Source: Planctomycetes bacterium RBG_16_41_13
GTDB taxonomy: Bacteria > Planctomycetota > Brocadiia > Brocadiales > Brocadiaceae
NCBI GenBank assembly: GCA_001828295.1
Contig: MHYI01000178.1
Location: forward strand, 1-5,419
Direction of reading: 5' to 3'
DNA length: 5,419 bases
Position 1 is the stretch's first letter. Every line of letters begins with the position of its first letter. A model generated the notes under the pieces. The model did no database searches, was not told where the DNA came from, and was given only the letters and a program-made list of their open reading frames with translations. The position numbers were made by a program, and so were the translations under genes. Below, piece after piece: positions 1-5,419 of this stretch.

Positions 1-2
1 GG

Positions 3-1637
3 ATTTTTTCAAATGTAAACAATCTTGTAACACAATTTTATAACCAGCTTAAAAGTAACGGAACATCATTATATGCTTCTCCTCTGAGCTGGTTAAAGGT
101 GTTGTTACAGTATATGTTTAACAGGTCTGATTTTGGGATCAGAGAGACGTGCCTTGAATGGTTAAAAGGCGAAAGTATTGACCGGGATGAGGCAAATACC
201 ATAGGTATAAGGAGCAGGGATGTATCACTTCCGGAAATGACTTCCGATGAGATGAACGAGCTTTGTAAACAAAGGGTCGTTGATTTCTGCCATCTTGCAG
301 GTTTTTTCAGACCATTTCTGTTCTGTTTTGATCAGACGGAAAATTATGGTAAAAATCCCGAACTGGTGAGGTCTTTCGGTATAATGATTGAAAACCTGGC
401 GAGCACATGCCCGAACCAGATGACTGTAGTAACGGCAAATCAGCATGTATGGGAAAAGACAATCCTTGCGTCTATGGAAGAAGCCCATAAAGATAGATTC
501 AATAAGCGTTATGAGCTTGAGGGAATAAATAAAGAACAGGGCAAAGAACTTATAAAGCAAAGACTGAACTTCTTTGATGGAGGTAGCGATAATATACAAT
601 TTTTTACTGATGAAAAGTGGTTAAATAGCATATTTAAAAATAATTCCCAAATAGGGGTTCGTCTTTTTATAAACGCTTGCAGAGATCAATGGGATAAATG
701 GAAAGACAAAGAAGTTAAGGTTGCCACGCTTGAATATTATTTCGAGAAAAATAGAGAAGATGTTAGGTCTCAGCCAAAAAGGCATATGTTTGATCCTGAT
801 ATTTTGTATTGGATGATCTTTGAAGTGTCTAAGGGGCTTACCGGGGTTAAGGTAAAAAAATATAAGACAGAAAAGGGATATTTTTCCATTCACTGGTTAT
901 TCAATACCAACTCTATTATATTTGGGTTTGAATCAGGTGCGAATAGTATGAGATGGCGATCAATTGTAAGGGAGGCGAAAAGATATGCAACGTCTCAAAA
1001 GGGATTGAAGGCAGTTATGTTGCGAACATTTGAGTTACCGAAGATACCTAAAACAACATGGAAAATAATAGGGGCAGAGATAAATGAGGCGAAAAATGAG
1101 TTTTTCAATATAGTAGATTTGAAGAAAGATATGGTGATAAATATTTATGCCGCTAATGAACTATACAGAGATGCAGTAGAAGGGGATATACCGTATTCAT
1201 GCGATGAGGTTTTAGCATTTATTAGAAAAAGATTTACGTGGTTTTGGGACACAATTATTGGTGGTTTCTCCGCCGGAAAAGAAAGTGAAACATTCTTGTC
1301 TCACAGAGACGCAAGGGGGGATGAAAATGTCATTCCTGCGAAAGCAGGAATCCGGAAAACAAAAGAACCGGATTCCCGTTTACACGGGAATGACAGGTTA
1401 GAAGGATTTTTGAAGGGGAAAAAAGACGAAAATAACATTATCCCGGCAGAAGGTGTTGCTGATGAGATTACGGCACATATCAAAAAGGAAAAGGTGTTAA
1501 GCTTCGATGAATTACTCATGAATTTGTCAAAGTCATTCGATAAAGAAGTAATCATAGATATTTGTATGAAAATTCCGCAAATAAAGGTTTATCAAAGTCC
1601 CCGTATGACACTATTACAATGGCAGTCAAATCGATAA
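3..1637 (+). CDS. AAA+/ORC-KAP-like P-loop ATPase, 5'-truncated by the window edge
   Basis: This is the C-terminal 544 residues of a larger ATPase. The frame is open from base 3 with no stop, so the first in-frame GTG (99) is internal and the true start lies upstream. No Walker A is visible, as expected if it was cut off. A Walker B-like hydrophobic strand ending FCFDQTEN has its Asp at base 330. A sensor-1-like strand TVVTANQ follows (423-443), and then DRFNKRYELEGI with a helix ending LIKQRL (about 492-575), the lid pattern of ORC/Cdc6 and KAP-type ATPases. Residues encoded at about 790-1260 form an unrecognised mixed alpha/beta domain, and the tail (about 1440-1637) looks like a small helical domain. 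A PAKAGI repeat is inserted in frame at 1329-1394. The 3' end overlaps the nuclease-FtsK gene, which implies an operon. The likely role is an ATP-driven sensor or loader for that partner; this is inference from context. The ATPase call is moderately sure, the family is not fixed. Confidence 0.85.
   Translation: MFSNVNNLVTQFYNQLKSNGTSLYASPLSWLKVLLQYMFNRSDFGIRETCLEWLKGESIDRDEANTIGIRSRDVSLPEMTSDEMNELCKQRVVDFCHLAGFFRPFLFCFDQTENYGKNPELVRSFGIMIENLASTCPNQMTVVTANQHVWEKTILASMEEAHKDRFNKRYELEGINKEQGKELIKQRLNFFDGGSDNIQFFTDEKWLNSIFKNNSQIGVRLFINACRDQWDKWKDKEVKVATLEYYFEKNREDVRSQPKRHMFDPDILYWMIFEVSKGLTGVKVKKYKTEKGYFSIHWLFNTNSIIFGFESGANSMRWRSIVREAKRYATSQKGLKAVMLRTFELPKIPKTTWKIIGAEINEAKNEFFNIVDLKKDMVINIYAANELYRDAVEGDIPYSCDEVLAFIRKRFTWFWDTIIGGFSAGKESETFLSHRDARGDENVIPAKAGIRKTKEPDSRLHGNDRLEGFLKGKKDENNIIPAEGVADEITAHIKKEKVLSFDELLMNLSKSFDKEVIIDICMKIPQIKVYQSPRMTLLQWQSNR
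1299..1316 (+). repeat. Possible fragment of a 'CTCACGCAGAGACGCAAAG' type dispersed repeat
   Basis: TCTCACAGAGACGCAAGG resembles, with a two-base deletion, a simple GACGCA-type dispersed sequence that turns up in many bacterial genomes and inside mispredicted proteins as 'SRRDAK'-like peptides. Here it reads LSHRDAR within the ATPase gene, 12 bases before the PAKAGI repeat. The resemblance is from memory and short, so it may be chance. Confidence 0.25.
1329..1394 (+). repeat. 'PAKAGI' double-hairpin dispersed repeat inside the ATPase gene
   Basis: This 66-bp element has outer arms GTCATTCC and GGAATGAC, which are perfect inverted repeats. The left hairpin is ATTCCTGC-gaaa-GCAGGAAT (1332-1351, 8 bp with a GNRA loop). 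The right hairpin is ATTCCCGT-ttac-ACGGGAAT (1372-1391, 8 bp). An inner pair AATCCGG/CCGGATT (1349-1355 and 1368-1374) lets the whole unit fold as a cruciform. Its translation here, from VIPAKAGI to DSRLHGND, is the well-known peptide signature of a widespread REP-like/MITE-like intergenic repeat. At exactly 22 codons in frame, it adds residues without breaking the gene. Confidence 0.9.
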
Positions 1638-3433
1638 CGGTAACAGAATTAAAACATGCCTGTCTGGACAATGATTGGAAAGACCGATGGCTTGCCGGCG
1701 AAAATCCTCAGACAACTCCTCAGCATCCTCCAAATTCAATAGCTGTTTACGGAACCAAATTCCACAACATTGTGAAGAAATTTTTAGATTGGTTGTCATT
1801 GCCAGAAAATAACACCATTACTCTAAACCTCAAAGACAGGTATTTGATCTGGGATGAAATGTATACCAGATTTGCAGAGAGCGAGATAAACGAAGTACTG
1901 AATAATAACAGATTGGAATCTGCGCACTATCTTGCAAAGGCATTAAAGGCCTTTTGTAACCGTACCGTTACCTTACGCGATCAGACAAACAATTTTCATT
2001 CATGGAATGATATATACATAACGAATGAGTTCCACATAAAGGATATCCAGTATAAGGTCGGTGATCATTCCGTTTTTGTTTCCGGCCAATTGGATTCGGT
2101 AAGGGTACATCCTGCGCGCGGCATTGAGATTGTGGATTACAAGCTTACGAAAGGCGATAAGAGGGAGCACGACCTTTTACAATTGGCTATCTATGCAGAA
2201 TTGTTAAAAAAACTAAAACCTGAAATGAAATGTAACGGAGCCCTTGAATATTATGTCCCGGATCTTCGTGAAGTTATTGTGACACATAAAGAGCTTGCCG
2301 AACTTTTTCATGATAGTGTTTTGCCGGTTTTGCATGAGCTGGCAGGTAAGGATAGGAGCAAATGTGCACGTGTTAAAAAACATGGCATAGACGAATTTGC
2401 CGCGATAATAAAACAAACCTATGCTGATTTCGGGCTTAAAATCGAAATAGTTGACAAACAGGAAGCGCCTCAATTGGTGCGGTATAAAATAAAACCGGAT
2501 TCCGGGGTGAAAGTTGTTTCATTAGCGAACAGGGCTGACGATTTACAGGTTGCATTAAGTTTAAATTCAGCGCCCAGGATAGAACCTTCCGTGGGCTATG
2601 TATCAATTGATATACCAAAAGAAACGCCTGATGTCATATATTGGAGTGACAGGGAAAAACATCCGGAAGATACAAAAGGGAATGAATGTGTCACTTTTCC
2701 CATAGGGGTAGGTGTGAATAACGAGATGCTTTTCGCCGATTTTGCTGATTCCAATACGGCTCATGCATTGGTTGCCGGGGCTTCAGGCAGTGGTAAAAGC
2801 GAATTTTTAAAATCACTGGTAGGCTCGTTATTGAAAAAGAATAATCCCGAAACCCTCAAACTCTCTCTTATCGACCCAAAAATTTTGACGTTTGGTTCAT
2901 TAAAGGCCTCACCTTTTTTGGCAGAACCGGTTATACATGATGTTGCAGGAGCTATTGACTGTTTAGAGAAGGCGGTACATGAAATGGAGAACCGCTATAA
3001 ACAGTTAGCGGAAGAGGGATTTAATGACCTGAGCAGTCGCATAAAAGCCGGAAGAAAAGACATCCCCTTTTATATTATTCTCTTTGATGAATTTGCAGAC
3101 CTGGTGCTTCAGGGGAAAAAAGAAAAAGAGACATTTGAAAAACTGGTAGCAAGAATAGCGGCAAAAGGCCGGGCGGCAGGAATACATATAGTGCTTGCCA
3201 CACAGCGGCCCGACAGAAACATTGTTACCGGCATCATAAAGGCCAATCTGCCCCTCAAAATTTGCATGAAAGTGACCACTGCCACCAATTCAAAAATTAT
3301 CCTTGACCATGCCGGTGGAGAATTATTGTTAGGGAGAGGCGATCTTCTTTGTGACCGGGGAAAAGGAATAGAACGCGCTCAATCTCTTTATATTTCACAG
3401 GATGAGCTTCTGTCGCTGGCAAAAATTTGCTGA
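1619..3433 (+). CDS. PD-(D/E)XK (RecB/Cas4-type) nuclease fused to FtsK/SpoIIIE DNA translocase
   Basis: A 604-residue soluble protein, probably a DNA translocase carrying its own nuclease. The N-terminal nuclease (about 1-200) has the full RecB/Cas4 signature: G45xxxH49, GQLD with Asp159, E170-IVDYK with Asp173 and Lys175, and Q188xxxY192. Residues about 255-345 match the FtsK alpha domain (RYKIKPDSGVKV, then RADDLQVAL, then GYVSIDIP). The motor (about 365-600) has Walker A GASGSGKS (387-394), Walker B IILFDE (Asp490, Glu491), the FtsK hallmark LATQRP (526-531), and the conserved tail ITGIIKANLP-like and LLGRGDLL-like stretches. The membrane domain and the C-terminal gamma winged helix of cell-division FtsK are absent, so chromosome segregation is unlikely. 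I chose the ATG at 1619 because the nuclease fold normally begins with ITVTELKHAC-like residues. A TTG at 1562 would add 19 residues without a ribosome binding site. The start overlaps the upstream gene by 19 bases with no clear Shine-Dalgarno, which suggests translational coupling. Domain calls are firm; the defence role is inference. Confidence 0.95.
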   Translation: MAVKSITVTELKHACLDNDWKDRWLAGENPQTTPQHPPNSIAVYGTKFHNIVKKFLDWLSLPENNTITLNLKDRYLIWDEMYTRFAESEINEVLNNNRLESAHYLAKALKAFCNRTVTLRDQTNNFHSWNDIYITNEFHIKDIQYKVGDHSVFVSGQLDSVRVHPARGIEIVDYKLTKGDKREHDLLQLAIYAELLKKLKPEMKCNGALEYYVPDLREVIVTHKELAELFHDSVLPVLHELAGKDRSKCARVKKHGIDEFAAIIKQTYADFGLKIEIVDKQEAPQLVRYKIKPDSGVKVVSLANRADDLQVALSLNSAPRIEPSVGYVSIDIPKETPDVIYWSDREKHPEDTKGNECVTFPIGVGVNNEMLFADFADSNTAHALVAGASGSGKSEFLKSLVGSLLKKNNPETLKLSLIDPKILTFGSLKASPFLAEPVIHDVAGAIDCLEKAVHEMENRYKQLAEEGFNDLSSRIKAGRKDIPFYIILFDEFADLVLQGKKEKETFEKLVARIAAKGRAAGIHIVLATQRPDRNIVTGIIKANLPLKICMKVTTATNSKIILDHAGGELLLGRGDLLCDRGKGIERAQSLYISQDELLSLAKIC

Positions 3434-3453
3434 CAATGAAAACAGGGTTATCC

Positions 3454-3484
3454 TTAATTATACGGTTATGTGGTATGTTATATT
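3454..3484 (+). promoter_or_regulatory. Weak candidate promoter ahead of the antitoxin remnant
   Basis: TATATT at 3479-3484 could be a -10 box, with a poor TTAATT (3454-3459, 19-base spacing) as -35. The surrounding stretch is AT-rich. A separate promoter would make sense for an antitoxin gene, but the match is weak. Confidence 0.2.
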
Positions 3485-3502
3485 CTAAAAATAGTAAAAT
3501 AC

Positions 3503-3506
3503 GAGG
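3503..3506 (+). promoter_or_regulatory. Ribosome binding site GAGG for the antitoxin remnant
   Basis: GAGG lies seven bases before the ATG at 3514. This is good spacing, and it supports the idea that the short reading frame began as a real, translated gene. Confidence 0.5.
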
Positions 3507-3513
3507 TTGAATT

Positions 3514-3606
3514 ATGACTACAAAAACAAACGAGATTATTTCAATGGTTGAGTCTTTACCAATTGATATGAAAACAAAATTGATTGAAAAACTTCTTAAC
3601 AGGTAA
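3514..3606 (+). pseudogene. Truncated addiction-module antitoxin (N-terminal remnant, 30 residues)
   Basis: A short frame starting MTTKTNEIISMVESLPIDM and ending IEKLLNR then TAA. It reads like the N-terminus of the 'putative addiction module component' antitoxins (the Unstab_antitox/TIGR02574 family, normally about 70-80 residues), in which a helix ending in a KLL motif is followed by a segment that binds the toxin. Only the first 30 residues remain. The rest, and any RelE/ParE-type toxin partner, are absent, and a repeat hairpin begins 30 bases after the stop. The start has a good ribosome binding site (GAGG). The likeliest reading is a decayed toxin-antitoxin module cut by recombination or repeat insertion. 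A tiny functional peptide cannot be excluded. Family identification is from memory of the sequence pattern. Confidence 0.6.
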
Positions 3607-3636
3607 CACGTTAGTTTTTTGAAAAATAAATTTAAT

Positions 3637-3694
3637 CTGCTCGCTCCCAAACCTTGTACTGAACATGGTGAAGTATCAGTTTGGGAGCAAGCAG
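3637..3694. repeat. 16-bp imperfect inverted repeat (hairpin)
   Basis: Left arm CTGCTCGCTCCCAAAC (3637-3652) pairs with GTTTGGGAGCAAGCAG (3679-3694) at 15 of 16 positions around a 26-base loop. The loop has further partial pairing (ACT/AGT). Neither flank carries a clean run of T, so it is not a typical intrinsic terminator. It looks like a dispersed hairpin repeat. Confidence 0.75.
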
Positions 3695-3751
3695 GAACAT
3701 ACACCCCCAATCGGTGATGGGGACACGTTTCGCATCCATTAACGCCGCACT

Positions 3752-3795
3752 TTTGGCTGATAGCCATGAGCCATCAGCCAAATTGCTATCAGCCA
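3752..3795. repeat. Overlapping inverted repeats of a GGCTGATAGC unit
   Basis: TTTGGCTGAT (3752-3761) pairs perfectly with ATCAGCCAAA (3773-3782). The overlapping TGGCTGATAGC (3754-3764) pairs perfectly with GCTATCAGCCA (3785-3795). The same left arm can therefore pair with either of two right arms, giving two mutually exclusive hairpins. This is typical of short 'gctgatagctgat' family dispersed repeats; a regulatory switch is possible but there is no gene evidence for one. Confidence 0.7.
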
Positions 3796-3808
3796 TAGGG
3801 GAAATATA

Positions 3809-3861
3809 GGGACACTTCCCTCATTTTTCCAAGATCAAGCAAGCAATATGGGAAGTGTCCC
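3809..3861. repeat. 12-bp perfect inverted repeat GGGACACTTCCC (REP-like)
   Basis: GGGACACTTCCC (3809-3820) and GGGAAGTGTCCC (3850-3861) are perfect inverted copies around a 29-base loop. A related GGGGACAC lies at 3719-3726 and its inverse GTGTCCCC at 3855-3862, so an outer 144-bp unit with 8-bp ends is also possible. From memory, GGGGACAC-type hairpins are dispersed in many environmental genomes and are often near Y1 (RAYT-type) transposases. No transposase is present here. Confidence 0.75.
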
Positions 3862-3880
3862 CAAATTACACCAAATTACA
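3861..3880 (+). repeat. Two tandem copies of a 10-bp unit
   Basis: CCAAATTACA occurs twice, head to tail, at 3861-3870 and 3871-3880, followed by an AT-rich degenerate stretch (aattattaaattatt). The first copy begins at the end of the GGGACACTTCCC inverted repeat. It may be a slippage product or a target duplication. Confidence 0.7.
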
Positions 3881-3938
3881 AATTATTAAATTATTCCGGA
3901 AGGGTTTATTTCATCCACAATGAGTAAACAAGGTTGAT

Positions 3939-3944
3939 TATAAT
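3939..3944 (+). promoter_or_regulatory. Consensus -10 box TATAAT upstream of the unknown 437-residue gene
   Basis: A perfect TATAAT stands 11 bases before the GTG at 3956. The best -35 partner is TCCACA (3914-3919), matching 4 of 6 with a 19-base spacing. Transcription from this box would begin about five bases before the GTG. That would give an almost leaderless message and put the GGGA (3947-3950) outside it, so either the box is not used or translation begins unusually. Confidence 0.35.
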
Positions 3945-3955
3945 CTGGGAAAAAA

Positions 3956-5269
3956 GTGAATAAACGAAACATGAAAGGTCATAAACAACTTCTTACAGAA
4001 ATATCCAACACCAGGGATGTTTTTACCGAACTGGATGATTTCTTCTGCAATGCAGATGAAAGTATTTCCCGTGATCCGGAGGACCCCCGGGAAGGAATCG
4101 GTCGTTTGCCCGGTCTTGACCGATTGATGTTCCTCATACCCTGTGTGATCAACCGCCTTGAGGAAGATATATCTGAGAGTAATGAATGTGAAAATGTCGC
4201 AGCAATCATAGAAGGTTTATATACAATACAAGAAGGCATACAGAGCGTATTAACTTATTATTTCCGGGACGATGTCGAAGGCGCAATCAATTTACTCAGT
4301 AATGTTCTGTCAAAGATAGACAAACCTTCCGGTAAAAAGTTCTCATCCGGTATCCGCATCTTCTGCGACATAGCGAGAATTGCACCGGACTTTCAGATCA
4401 TTCTTGGTATGTTTGAAGGATTCCGGGAAAACAGACGAATAAGGCCCAAAGAACCGGAAACCAACACATCGTGGTCGCCTGAATGCTGGTTGGATTATTA
4501 CCGGGAACAAGCCAGGCTTGAAGAACCTCTTATCGCCATGGTTGATGCCGAAGGACTCTCTGAAGCAAGCCTTGAAAAAGGTATGAAACGAATGGTGGAA
4601 GAAAGCGAACAAAGAGACAAGATGATGGAAAAACAATTAACCATTTATAAACTGATGAAAAACAGAGATGCAGCATTTAGCCCGGAACATCCGGAAAGGT
4701 TCTTAGACCTTTCAGAGATTCCGGATATAAAAGACGAGAACGACGATGGTGATTATGAAGTCAGGGTTATAGACCTCTGTTATGAGGATGTGGAAGAAGA
4801 GCCCCAAGAACCCTGGGCAAGTTCCCTGCCGGAACTCTGCAATTGGAATAAAATTATACAAGAATCATCCTTTGGTGATACGGAATTATACCGTCAGGAT
4901 TTTGAAGATGAGCCGGTTTACCGTCTGCTTAAGCCTTTTGTGCATAGGCTTTTTGAATGTCTGAAACAGGACGATCTTCGTCGGGTCAAAGAAAGCAAAA
5001 GCGGGGTTCCTGAGATGCGATCTCCGCTGGATCACTATTTAGTAATTCTTGCCCTTAAGGCACAGGTGCGAATATCCTCCTGTGGAGTCCAGGCTGAAGA
5101 CGTCGGACACGAAGCGCCGAGAAAAGGTGTTTATCTGTTTGCCATGGAATGCCTGGAAAGGATTACCGAAGCCATAGAGAGATTCCAACGGAAACATCTT
5201 TATCATCTCGCTGCCGAAGCACGAAATATCAAAAAACAGATTGAGAAGATACTTGCTGAAAACCTATAG
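3956..5269 (+). CDS. Unrecognised acidic, probably helical soluble protein
   Basis: I do not recognise this 437-residue protein. It has no signal peptide, membrane segment, P-loop or zinc-binding Cys/His cluster that I can see. Residues about 10-150 appear helical (for example DRLMFLIPCVINRLEEDI). Residues about 195-235 are rich in Glu, Lys and Met and could form a coiled coil. Residues about 253-287 are a strongly acidic linker ending in EEPQEPW. The last 120 residues are again helical, ending in a charged helix (KKQIEKILAENL). The GTG start at 3956 is preceded by GGGA five bases upstream; an ATG at 3971 (432 residues) is the alternative and has no visible ribosome binding site. It lies after a repeat-rich gap and 46 bases before the next gene, so it may be co-transcribed with that gene. 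A scaffold or adaptor role would fit the composition, but this is only inference. Confidence 0.85.
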   Translation: MNKRNMKGHKQLLTEISNTRDVFTELDDFFCNADESISRDPEDPREGIGRLPGLDRLMFLIPCVINRLEEDISESNECENVAAIIEGLYTIQEGIQSVLTYYFRDDVEGAINLLSNVLSKIDKPSGKKFSSGIRIFCDIARIAPDFQIILGMFEGFRENRRIRPKEPETNTSWSPECWLDYYREQARLEEPLIAMVDAEGLSEASLEKGMKRMVEESEQRDKMMEKQLTIYKLMKNRDAAFSPEHPERFLDLSEIPDIKDENDDGDYEVRVIDLCYEDVEEEPQEPWASSLPELCNWNKIIQESSFGDTELYRQDFEDEPVYRLLKPFVHRLFECLKQDDLRRVKESKSGVPEMRSPLDHYLVILALKAQVRISSCGVQAEDVGHEAPRKGVYLFAMECLERITEAIERFQRKHLYHLAAEARNIKKQIEKILAENL

Positions 5270-5315
5270 CGCATCCGAATATTTAATATGTGTATGTATT
5301 CCATGAGAAATAATT

Positions 5316-5419
5316 ATGGATCATAAGGAATTATATCTAAAATACCAAGCTCTGCTTGCAGAAAATGTCGACTTAAAAACTGAGATAAAAAGGTTAAAGG
5401 CACAACGTGGTATTCCCGA
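5316..5419 (+). CDS. Start of a gene with an N-terminal leucine-heptad coiled coil, cut by the window edge
   Basis: An ATG at 5316 opens a frame of 34 codons that runs off the window. An in-frame TGA at 5304 leaves no alternative start of the ATG/GTG/TTG type. A GAGA (5305-5308), seven bases upstream, may serve as ribosome binding site. The peptide begins MDHKELYLKYQALL and has leucines at 6, 13, 20 and 27, an exact heptad series, with charged residues between (KTEIKRLKAQ), then breaks at RGIP. A short leading coiled coil of this type followed by a Gly-Pro break resembles, from memory, the N-termini of large conflict-system helicase/primase proteins (TOTE type). IS66-type transposases and many other proteins also begin this way. 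It sits 46 bases after the unknown gene, so the two are probably in one operon. Confidence 0.7.
   Translation, partial: MDHKELYLKYQALLAENVDLKTEIKRLKAQRGIP

Follow-up and report, generated by a model that had tools for sequence, protein, structure and literature searches.

What does a bacterium do with an ORC/Cdc6-like ATPase whose gene runs into a gene for a nuclease fused to an FtsK motor? The question is raised by contig MHYI01000178.1 of Planctomycetes bacterium RBG_16_41_13 (Brocadiales), of which we analyzed positions 1 to 5,419 (5419 nt, hereafter the window). The window starts inside the ATPase gene (P1) and continues with the nuclease-FtsK gene (P2). A sequence-only reading of this DNA had proposed that the two genes form an operon encoding a candidate for an undescribed, DNA-targeting defence system. 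As described below, related loci show that the operon consists of three genes, P0-P1-P2, and not of a pair. We consider it probable that this operon belongs to the Orc/CDC6-coupled HerA/FtsK capture class and encodes a machine that intercepts the DNA of invaders. The features of P1 and P2 in the window are as follows.

3..1637, + strand: P1, ORC/Cdc6-like AAA+ ATPase, 3' part (open frame of 544 aa; 5' end and Walker A off the window)
330..341, + strand: Walker B of P1 (D-Q-T-E; FCFDQTEN), from the sequence and column counts
789..1262, + strand: alpha/beta domain of P1, between the AAA+ core and the C-terminal domain (secondary structure of the P0121 model, residues ~440-597)
1327..1397, + strand: palindromic repeat element, in frame in the P1 linker (sequence)
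1437..1622, + strand: C-terminal winged-helix-like domain of P1 (elements H654-671 to E711-715 of the P0121 model)
1619..3433, + strand: P2, nuclease-FtsK fusion of 604 aa (conserved ATG at 1619, Pfam)
1619..2320, + strand: RecB/Cas4-type PD-(D/E)XK nuclease domain of P2 (PF12705, 2.3e-11)
2321..2617, + strand: FtsK alpha domain of P2 (PF17854, 8e-12)
2690..3211, + strand: FtsK motor core of P2 (PF01580, 3.9e-37; the conserved region extends past the Pfam match)

P2 Joins an Apparently Intact Nuclease to an FtsK Motor

The open reading frame (ORF) listed for P2 has 623 aa and begins at an upstream TTG (1562); the conserved ATG gives 604 aa and an overlap of 19 nt with P1. Along this protein Pfam places PDDEXK_1, FtsK_alpha (profile positions 1-100 of 101) and FtsK_SpoIIIE (18-219 of 221), and the closest solved structures by sequence are FtsK motors (2iuu_A, 4.2e-54). 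A search scored on P2 residues 1-380 returned 247 proteins, and 43 taken from the best 120 of these were aligned. In all 43 the residues H49, D159, D173, K175, Q188 and Y192 of the nuclease and K393 of the motor are invariant, together with the G-K-S of the motor Walker A and the D-E of its Walker B. This bears out the earlier description of a complete RecB/Cas4-type nuclease fused to a complete FtsK alpha and motor module, and the nuclease of P2 is apparently intact. Among the PADLOC models the motor matches SspH best (1.3e-53, FtsK part only), and HerA profiles match it as well. Like P2, the HerA-NurA, SIR2-HerA and DUF4297-HerA systems combine a pump of the HerA/FtsK class with an effector; they are two-component systems, and their effector folds differ from that of P2.

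P1 Is an ORC/Cdc6-Like ATPase With an Unusual Walker B

The P1 search returned 90 proteins. In the P1 alignment (A2, 48 rows) the other 47 rows are 651-719 aa long, therefore about 175 residues of P1, including Walker A, lie off the window. The window part of P1 gave no significant match in Pfam, PADLOC or NCBIfam. Its full-length relative P0123 has a weak AAA_22 match (3.6e-5, under the curated cut-off), and the fold search, whose rows cover residues 1-414, matched P1 to ORC/Cdc6, TnsC and BrxC. Thus, of the label "ORC/KAP-like" given to this protein before, the ORC part stands and the KAP part has to be dropped, the sole KAP match seen being insignificant (P0123, 0.083). The G-K-S of Walker A is kept in all 47 rows that cover this site, and the D and Q of Walker B are invariant (48/48). 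AAA+ ATPases usually have a catalytic glutamate where P1 has the Q. To judge from this invariant residue, ATP hydrolysis by P1 may be unusual.

The alpha/beta domain, visible in the P0121 model, lies outside the fold-search rows. The order of its elements would be compatible with an inactive restriction-endonuclease-like (iREase) domain, which is the name used, in the excerpted text of PMC10853773, for a domain at that place in Orc/CDC6 proteins. At the C-terminus the same model shows a winged-helix-like order of elements (residues 654-715). The palindromic repeat at 1327-1397 (CATTCCTGCGAAAGCAGGAATCC ... GGATTCCCGTTTACACGGGAATGAC) is translated within the linker of P1; it is found in P0121 too and is missing from P0122 and P0124. 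The repeat-bearing linker corresponds to residues 600-650 of the P0121 model, whose predicted local distance difference test (pLDDT) values are below 50.

P0, P1 and P2 Form One Operon

P0, a protein of three tandem winged helices, is encoded directly before P1 in 42 of 46 related loci, and two of the four loci without it have no room for it at the contig edge. In the contig studied here P0 would lie just off the window. The P0 model (pLDDT 92.5) has three winged-helix units by secondary structure, and Foldseek matched it, at low whole-length TM-scores, to winged-helix chains of the RNA polymerase III initiation complex, SelB and ScpAB.

In three loci (L025, L042, and L045) the contig ends inside P1, which leaves 43 for the P2 counts. 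The nuclease and the motor are present in 31 of them. Where the two genes are separate, P2 starts before the P1 stop in 29 of 31 loci, as measured from the nuclease match, so that the overlap seen in the window is conserved far beyond chance. The reverse test, which started from the nuclease alone and covered 1010 genomes in four draws (395, 286, 296, and 33), found P1 adjoining in 23 of 25 loci from 24 genomes; the first set had already included 13 of these loci, and P1 lies beside the nuclease in 10 of the 12 new ones. By these counts the gene pair is conserved across genomes. The loci without P1 are L060 and L069. In L060 a P2-type nuclease-like domain ends a coiled-coil-rich open frame, with no P1 match in the stretch examined. 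The complete operon is found, for example, in Rhodoplanes elegans DSM 11907 and Bradyrhizobium sp. SSBR45G.

The Operon Belongs to a Predicted Class and Extends It

Orc/CDC6-coupled HerA/FtsK capture systems were predicted by Rakesh, Aravind and Krishnan in 2024 (PMC10853773). In the excerpted text of that work, these systems contain an Orc/CDC6 ATPase with an inactive restriction endonuclease (REase) before a winged helix-turn-helix (wHTH), an active REase, and a HerA/FtsK protein with or without FtsK-alpha; a subset has a protein with 2-4 winged helices and some members a 3'-5' exonuclease, and the anti-invader role is presented as a prediction. The operon matches this description part by part: Orc/CDC6 AAA+ ATPase, putative PD-(D/E)XK nuclease, FtsK with FtsK-alpha, and the multi-winged-helix P0 (in relatives). 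The iREase and the wHTH of P1 stand apart from this agreement as candidates, suggested by the order of elements in the model. Because the class is in print, we assign the operon to it rather than to an undescribed system. The exonuclease members have a counterpart here in the distant locus L049, where a 3'-5' exonuclease domain, PDDEXK and FtsK are in one protein; its ATPase gives a weak PADLOC match to SngB. No experimental test of the class was found in the open-licence PMC literature, as far as its text was accessible.

Some of the features observed add to the class as excerpted. P1 and the nuclease share one open frame in eight loci (L026, L031, and L063-L068), Methylacidimicrobium being an example of a natural P1-P2 fusion. 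The motor behind the same nuclease is of the FtsK type in 28 of 31 loci (P2 profile) and of the HerA type, from another motor clade, in L018, L029 and L035 (Pfam). L013 has a P1 core that continues into a HATPase domain (6.5e-6), and a DUF4325 gene (9.4e-16) comes next. These fusions and the HerA-for-FtsK exchange, together with the degenerate or missing nucleases described below, are our additions; one-frame P1-P2 fusions, short P1 proteins without P2 and the HATPase fusion are not mentioned in the excerpts of PMC10853773.

Other known systems resemble the operon less completely. DndFGH/DptFGH also comprise an ATPase, a triple-winged-helix protein and a protein that joins REase and HerA/FtsK. 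DndH differs in having SWI2/SNF2, target-recognition (TRD) and methylase-like domains (1389-1715 positions in PADLOC models), and its PADLOC model matches the P2 motor only, weakly. SspFGH, as excerpted from PMC8092258, is similar in its three genes, a Walker A protein and an FtsK-like C-terminus. Neither DndF and DndG nor SspF and SspG gave a PADLOC match at E 1 for the window P1, P0123 and three P0 proteins. BREX-related capture (BRC) systems, an offshoot with BREX parts according to the excerpts of PMC12839542, share with the operon an ORC/Cdc6 ATPase, a tripartite DNA-binding protein and HerA/FtsK, but have PglZ and a STAND NTPase where the operon has a RecB-type nuclease fused to FtsK. 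Among the 25 of 30 PADLOC families listed for the neighboring genes (see below) there is no Ssp family and no PglZ, for which no dedicated search was made.

Defence Is the Best Reading of the Operon

How might the three proteins work together? P0 and P1 would bind and recognize some feature of plasmid or phage DNA, be it a site, a DNA end or an intermediate of replication or transfer. P1 would use ATP binding to load P2, and the FtsK hexamer would then pull duplex DNA past the nuclease, which would cut it. The targets would most likely be plasmid or phage DNA. The parts of the operon speak for this scheme, although beyond the domain assignments we infer every one of its steps; of the earlier reading, the domains, the pairing of the genes and the idea of a motor that feeds DNA to the attached nuclease are supported. 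Defence is favored because of the invariant active sites, the linkage of P0, P1 and P2, the one-frame fusions of P1 with the nuclease, the HerA-type motors behind the same nuclease, the patchy occurrence (the nuclease was found in 24 of the 1010 genomes drawn, and in 2 of 33 in one family), the fold matches, the part-by-part agreement with the published class and the nearby TOTE gene (see below). By record title, P1 rows come from Planctomycetota, Thermodesulfobacteriota, Nitrospirota, Verrucomicrobiota, Acidobacteriota, Nitrospinota, Myxococcota, and Pseudomonadota.

The neighborhoods back this reading weakly. Within 3.5 kb of the operons there are 185 genes, of which 141 were kept (130-980 aa, <2.3 kb) and 137 scanned, four long ones being left out; the Cas3g gene of L035, one of these four, was scanned later. 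As a control we used 108 genes from 12 regions, chosen on large contigs from nine genomes; the training step of their gene calling differed slightly. PADLOC families numbered 30 for the 137 neighbors and 9 for the 108 control genes. Clear defence neighbors are NsnABC in L011 (which has no P2), SoFic in L009, and Cas3g and Cas8g after P2 in L035; mad2, mad3, PDC-S12 and PDC-S17, not assigned to loci, are also among the matches. In line with the earlier expectation, the neighbor Pfam families listed (25 of 144) include none for conjugation or cell division, and none was recognized by eye in the neighbor sequences inspected.

Several observations weigh against a defence role. Of the 25 PADLOC families listed, 15 trace to four proteins at two loci (three NsnABC proteins in L011 and SoFic in L009). 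For this reason we claim no PADLOC enrichment; the DNA-targeting defence proposed earlier remains plausible. By the Pfam families listed and by eye, most neighbors look like unrelated metabolic, transport and signaling genes. A quick P1 tree tracks the phyla, with 8 label changes against the least possible 7, and in this P1 is unlike a fast-moving defence gene. No relative was found in phage records with the P0123 query, and 10 candidate stretches found in viral contigs with the P1 alignment gave 0 confirmed cases. In plasmids, the P1 of L040 retrieved a single partial P1 (34% covered), from one Methylosinus strain that is present with two records; the query made of the P2 nuclease and alpha domains retrieved only FtsK-like stretches, with about 30% covered. 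Furthermore, 9 of the 43 loci have no P2 (L006, L011, L013, L028, L032, L041, L043, L044, and L046), two (L007 and L012) have a degenerate nuclease-like domain and no motor, L038 has a motor fused to P1 and no nuclease, and in L036 the motor is accompanied by a degenerate nuclease. Catalytic residues are lost in L012 and L036 by column counts and, as read from the sequence, in L007. Nuclease activity is therefore not universal.

Part of this evidence would suit a host machine for DNA repair or end processing like HerA-NurA or AddAB, in which P0 and P1 recognize DNA that is broken or stalled, and P2 pumps and resects it at the same time. The predicted activities of the operon equal those of archaeal HerA-NurA, the nuclease is of the RecB type, the P1 tree tracks phyla and the neighbors are mostly not defence genes. 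Such a machine would hardly be expected to have so patchy an occurrence, to lose its nuclease or let it degenerate in several loci, and to exchange its motor between clades, and we regard this explanation as unlikely. The loci with P0-P1 and no P2 would suit an abortive or regulatory stress module, with P0-P1 as sensor and P2 as one of several outputs, acting by host killing in place of selective cutting; the P1 core-HATPase fusion of L013 with its DUF4325 neighbor, the winged helices and the ORC-like ATPase would agree with this. Since 31 of 43 loci have P2, with active sites intact in all aligned P2 proteins and a start that overlaps P1 in 29 of 31, such a module seems distinctly improbable. 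Very doubtful, finally, is a machinery that serves to maintain or transfer a mobile element, now chromosomal and composed of a TnsC-like ATPase, an FtsK pump and a nuclease: no transposase or recombinase is among the 25 of 144 neighbor Pfam families listed, and phages yielded nothing and plasmids almost nothing.

P0-P1 May Be a Platform for Exchangeable Outputs

The P1-P2 fusions, the HerA-for-FtsK exchange, the degenerate or missing nucleases and the P1-HATPase fusion hint at exchangeable effectors on a P0-P1 platform. The outputs seen with P0-P1 are nuclease-FtsK, nuclease-HerA, a motor without nuclease, and HATPase. Because of this range, DNA pumping or signaling, and not cutting alone, could be the output. 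We tentatively propose, as a possibility less probable than its opposite, that P0-P1 is a general invader-sensing platform and that effectors dock on the C-terminal winged helix of P1.

The C-terminus of P1 is the part concerned in several variants. In the fusions L026, L031 and L038 the effector replaces the C-terminal winged-helix domain, and so does the HATPase in L013. In L006, L011, L028, L032, L044 and L046, all without P2, the P1 frame stops 1-6 residues past profile position 596-603, before this domain. When losses of P2 were compared with losses of the P1 C-terminus on starred branches of a tree of 39 rows (fused L026, L031 and L038 and truncated L041 left out), 4 of 5 independent pairs were concordant and 1 was undecided, which is not significant (p 0.125). 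A plain alternative for the joint loss is a single deletion at the overlapping P1-P2 junction. Moreover, L043 retains the P1 C-terminus without P2, which counts against a functional link between them, and L041, L044 and L046 look like damaged genes.

A TOTE Gene and Other Features Near the Operon

Downstream of P2 the window contains two further features.

3956..5269, + strand: ORF of 437 aa before the TOTE gene (ORF list; no convincing Pfam match)
5316..5419, + strand: TOTE conflict-system gene, start only, cut by the window end (likeness to the L002 protein)

The TOTE gene begins 1.9 kb downstream of P2, with the 437-aa ORF between them. It was identified through Kuenenia hertensis (L002), which groups with the window P1 and P0121 in the P1 tree; from this grouping the window probably stems from a planctomycete of the anammox type. 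The ORF at 5316 shares 22 of 34 residues with the start of the L002 protein encoded at 4906-7815, and the DNA at 5256-5419 is 84.8% identical to L002. The L002 protein matches AEP-TOTE (4.6e-105), ResIII and PLDc_2, corresponding to AEP primase, SF2 helicase and PLD-type domains. In L002 the TOTE gene lies 1.4 kb before P0, i.e., upstream of the operon, and is preceded by a frame-broken copy of the 437-aa ORF (4353-4801, about 77% identical). Since TOTE and the 437-aa ORF are upstream of P0 in L002 and downstream of P2 here, this block and the operon, two conflict modules, lie near each other in swapped order. In L091, a further copy from the same family draw, there is no TOTE match across 19.9 kb. 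In two Desulfobacterales loci, a related 427-aa coiled-coil-rich protein is encoded directly 3' of P2 (L015:13893-15173 and L034:13889-15169); these are probably the two DUF2130 proteins counted among the neighbors.

Between P2 and the 437-aa ORF there are three inverted repeats (3637-3694, 3754-3795, and 3798-3872, with arms of 16, 14, and 28 nt), none of which belongs to an Rfam family at threshold; the whole window has no Rfam match at the gathering threshold. Three sub-threshold matches at 3430-3960, to animal microRNA and enterovirus families, were taken as chance. A 30-codon ORF at 3514-3606 (MTTKTNEIISMVESLPIDMKTKLIEKLLNR) has no Pfam match, and we take it, from a general impression, to resemble the start of a truncated antitoxin-type gene.

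What the Operon Would Teach

The operon is compact, with three genes, its active sites are easily mutated, and the P1-P2 fusions make assembly testable as one protein. Tests of it would tell whether loaders of the ORC type are able to deliver an FtsK pump and a nuclease to invading DNA. The operon showed no conserved modification gene, and its study would also reveal by what means self DNA is spared when no modification enzyme is linked.

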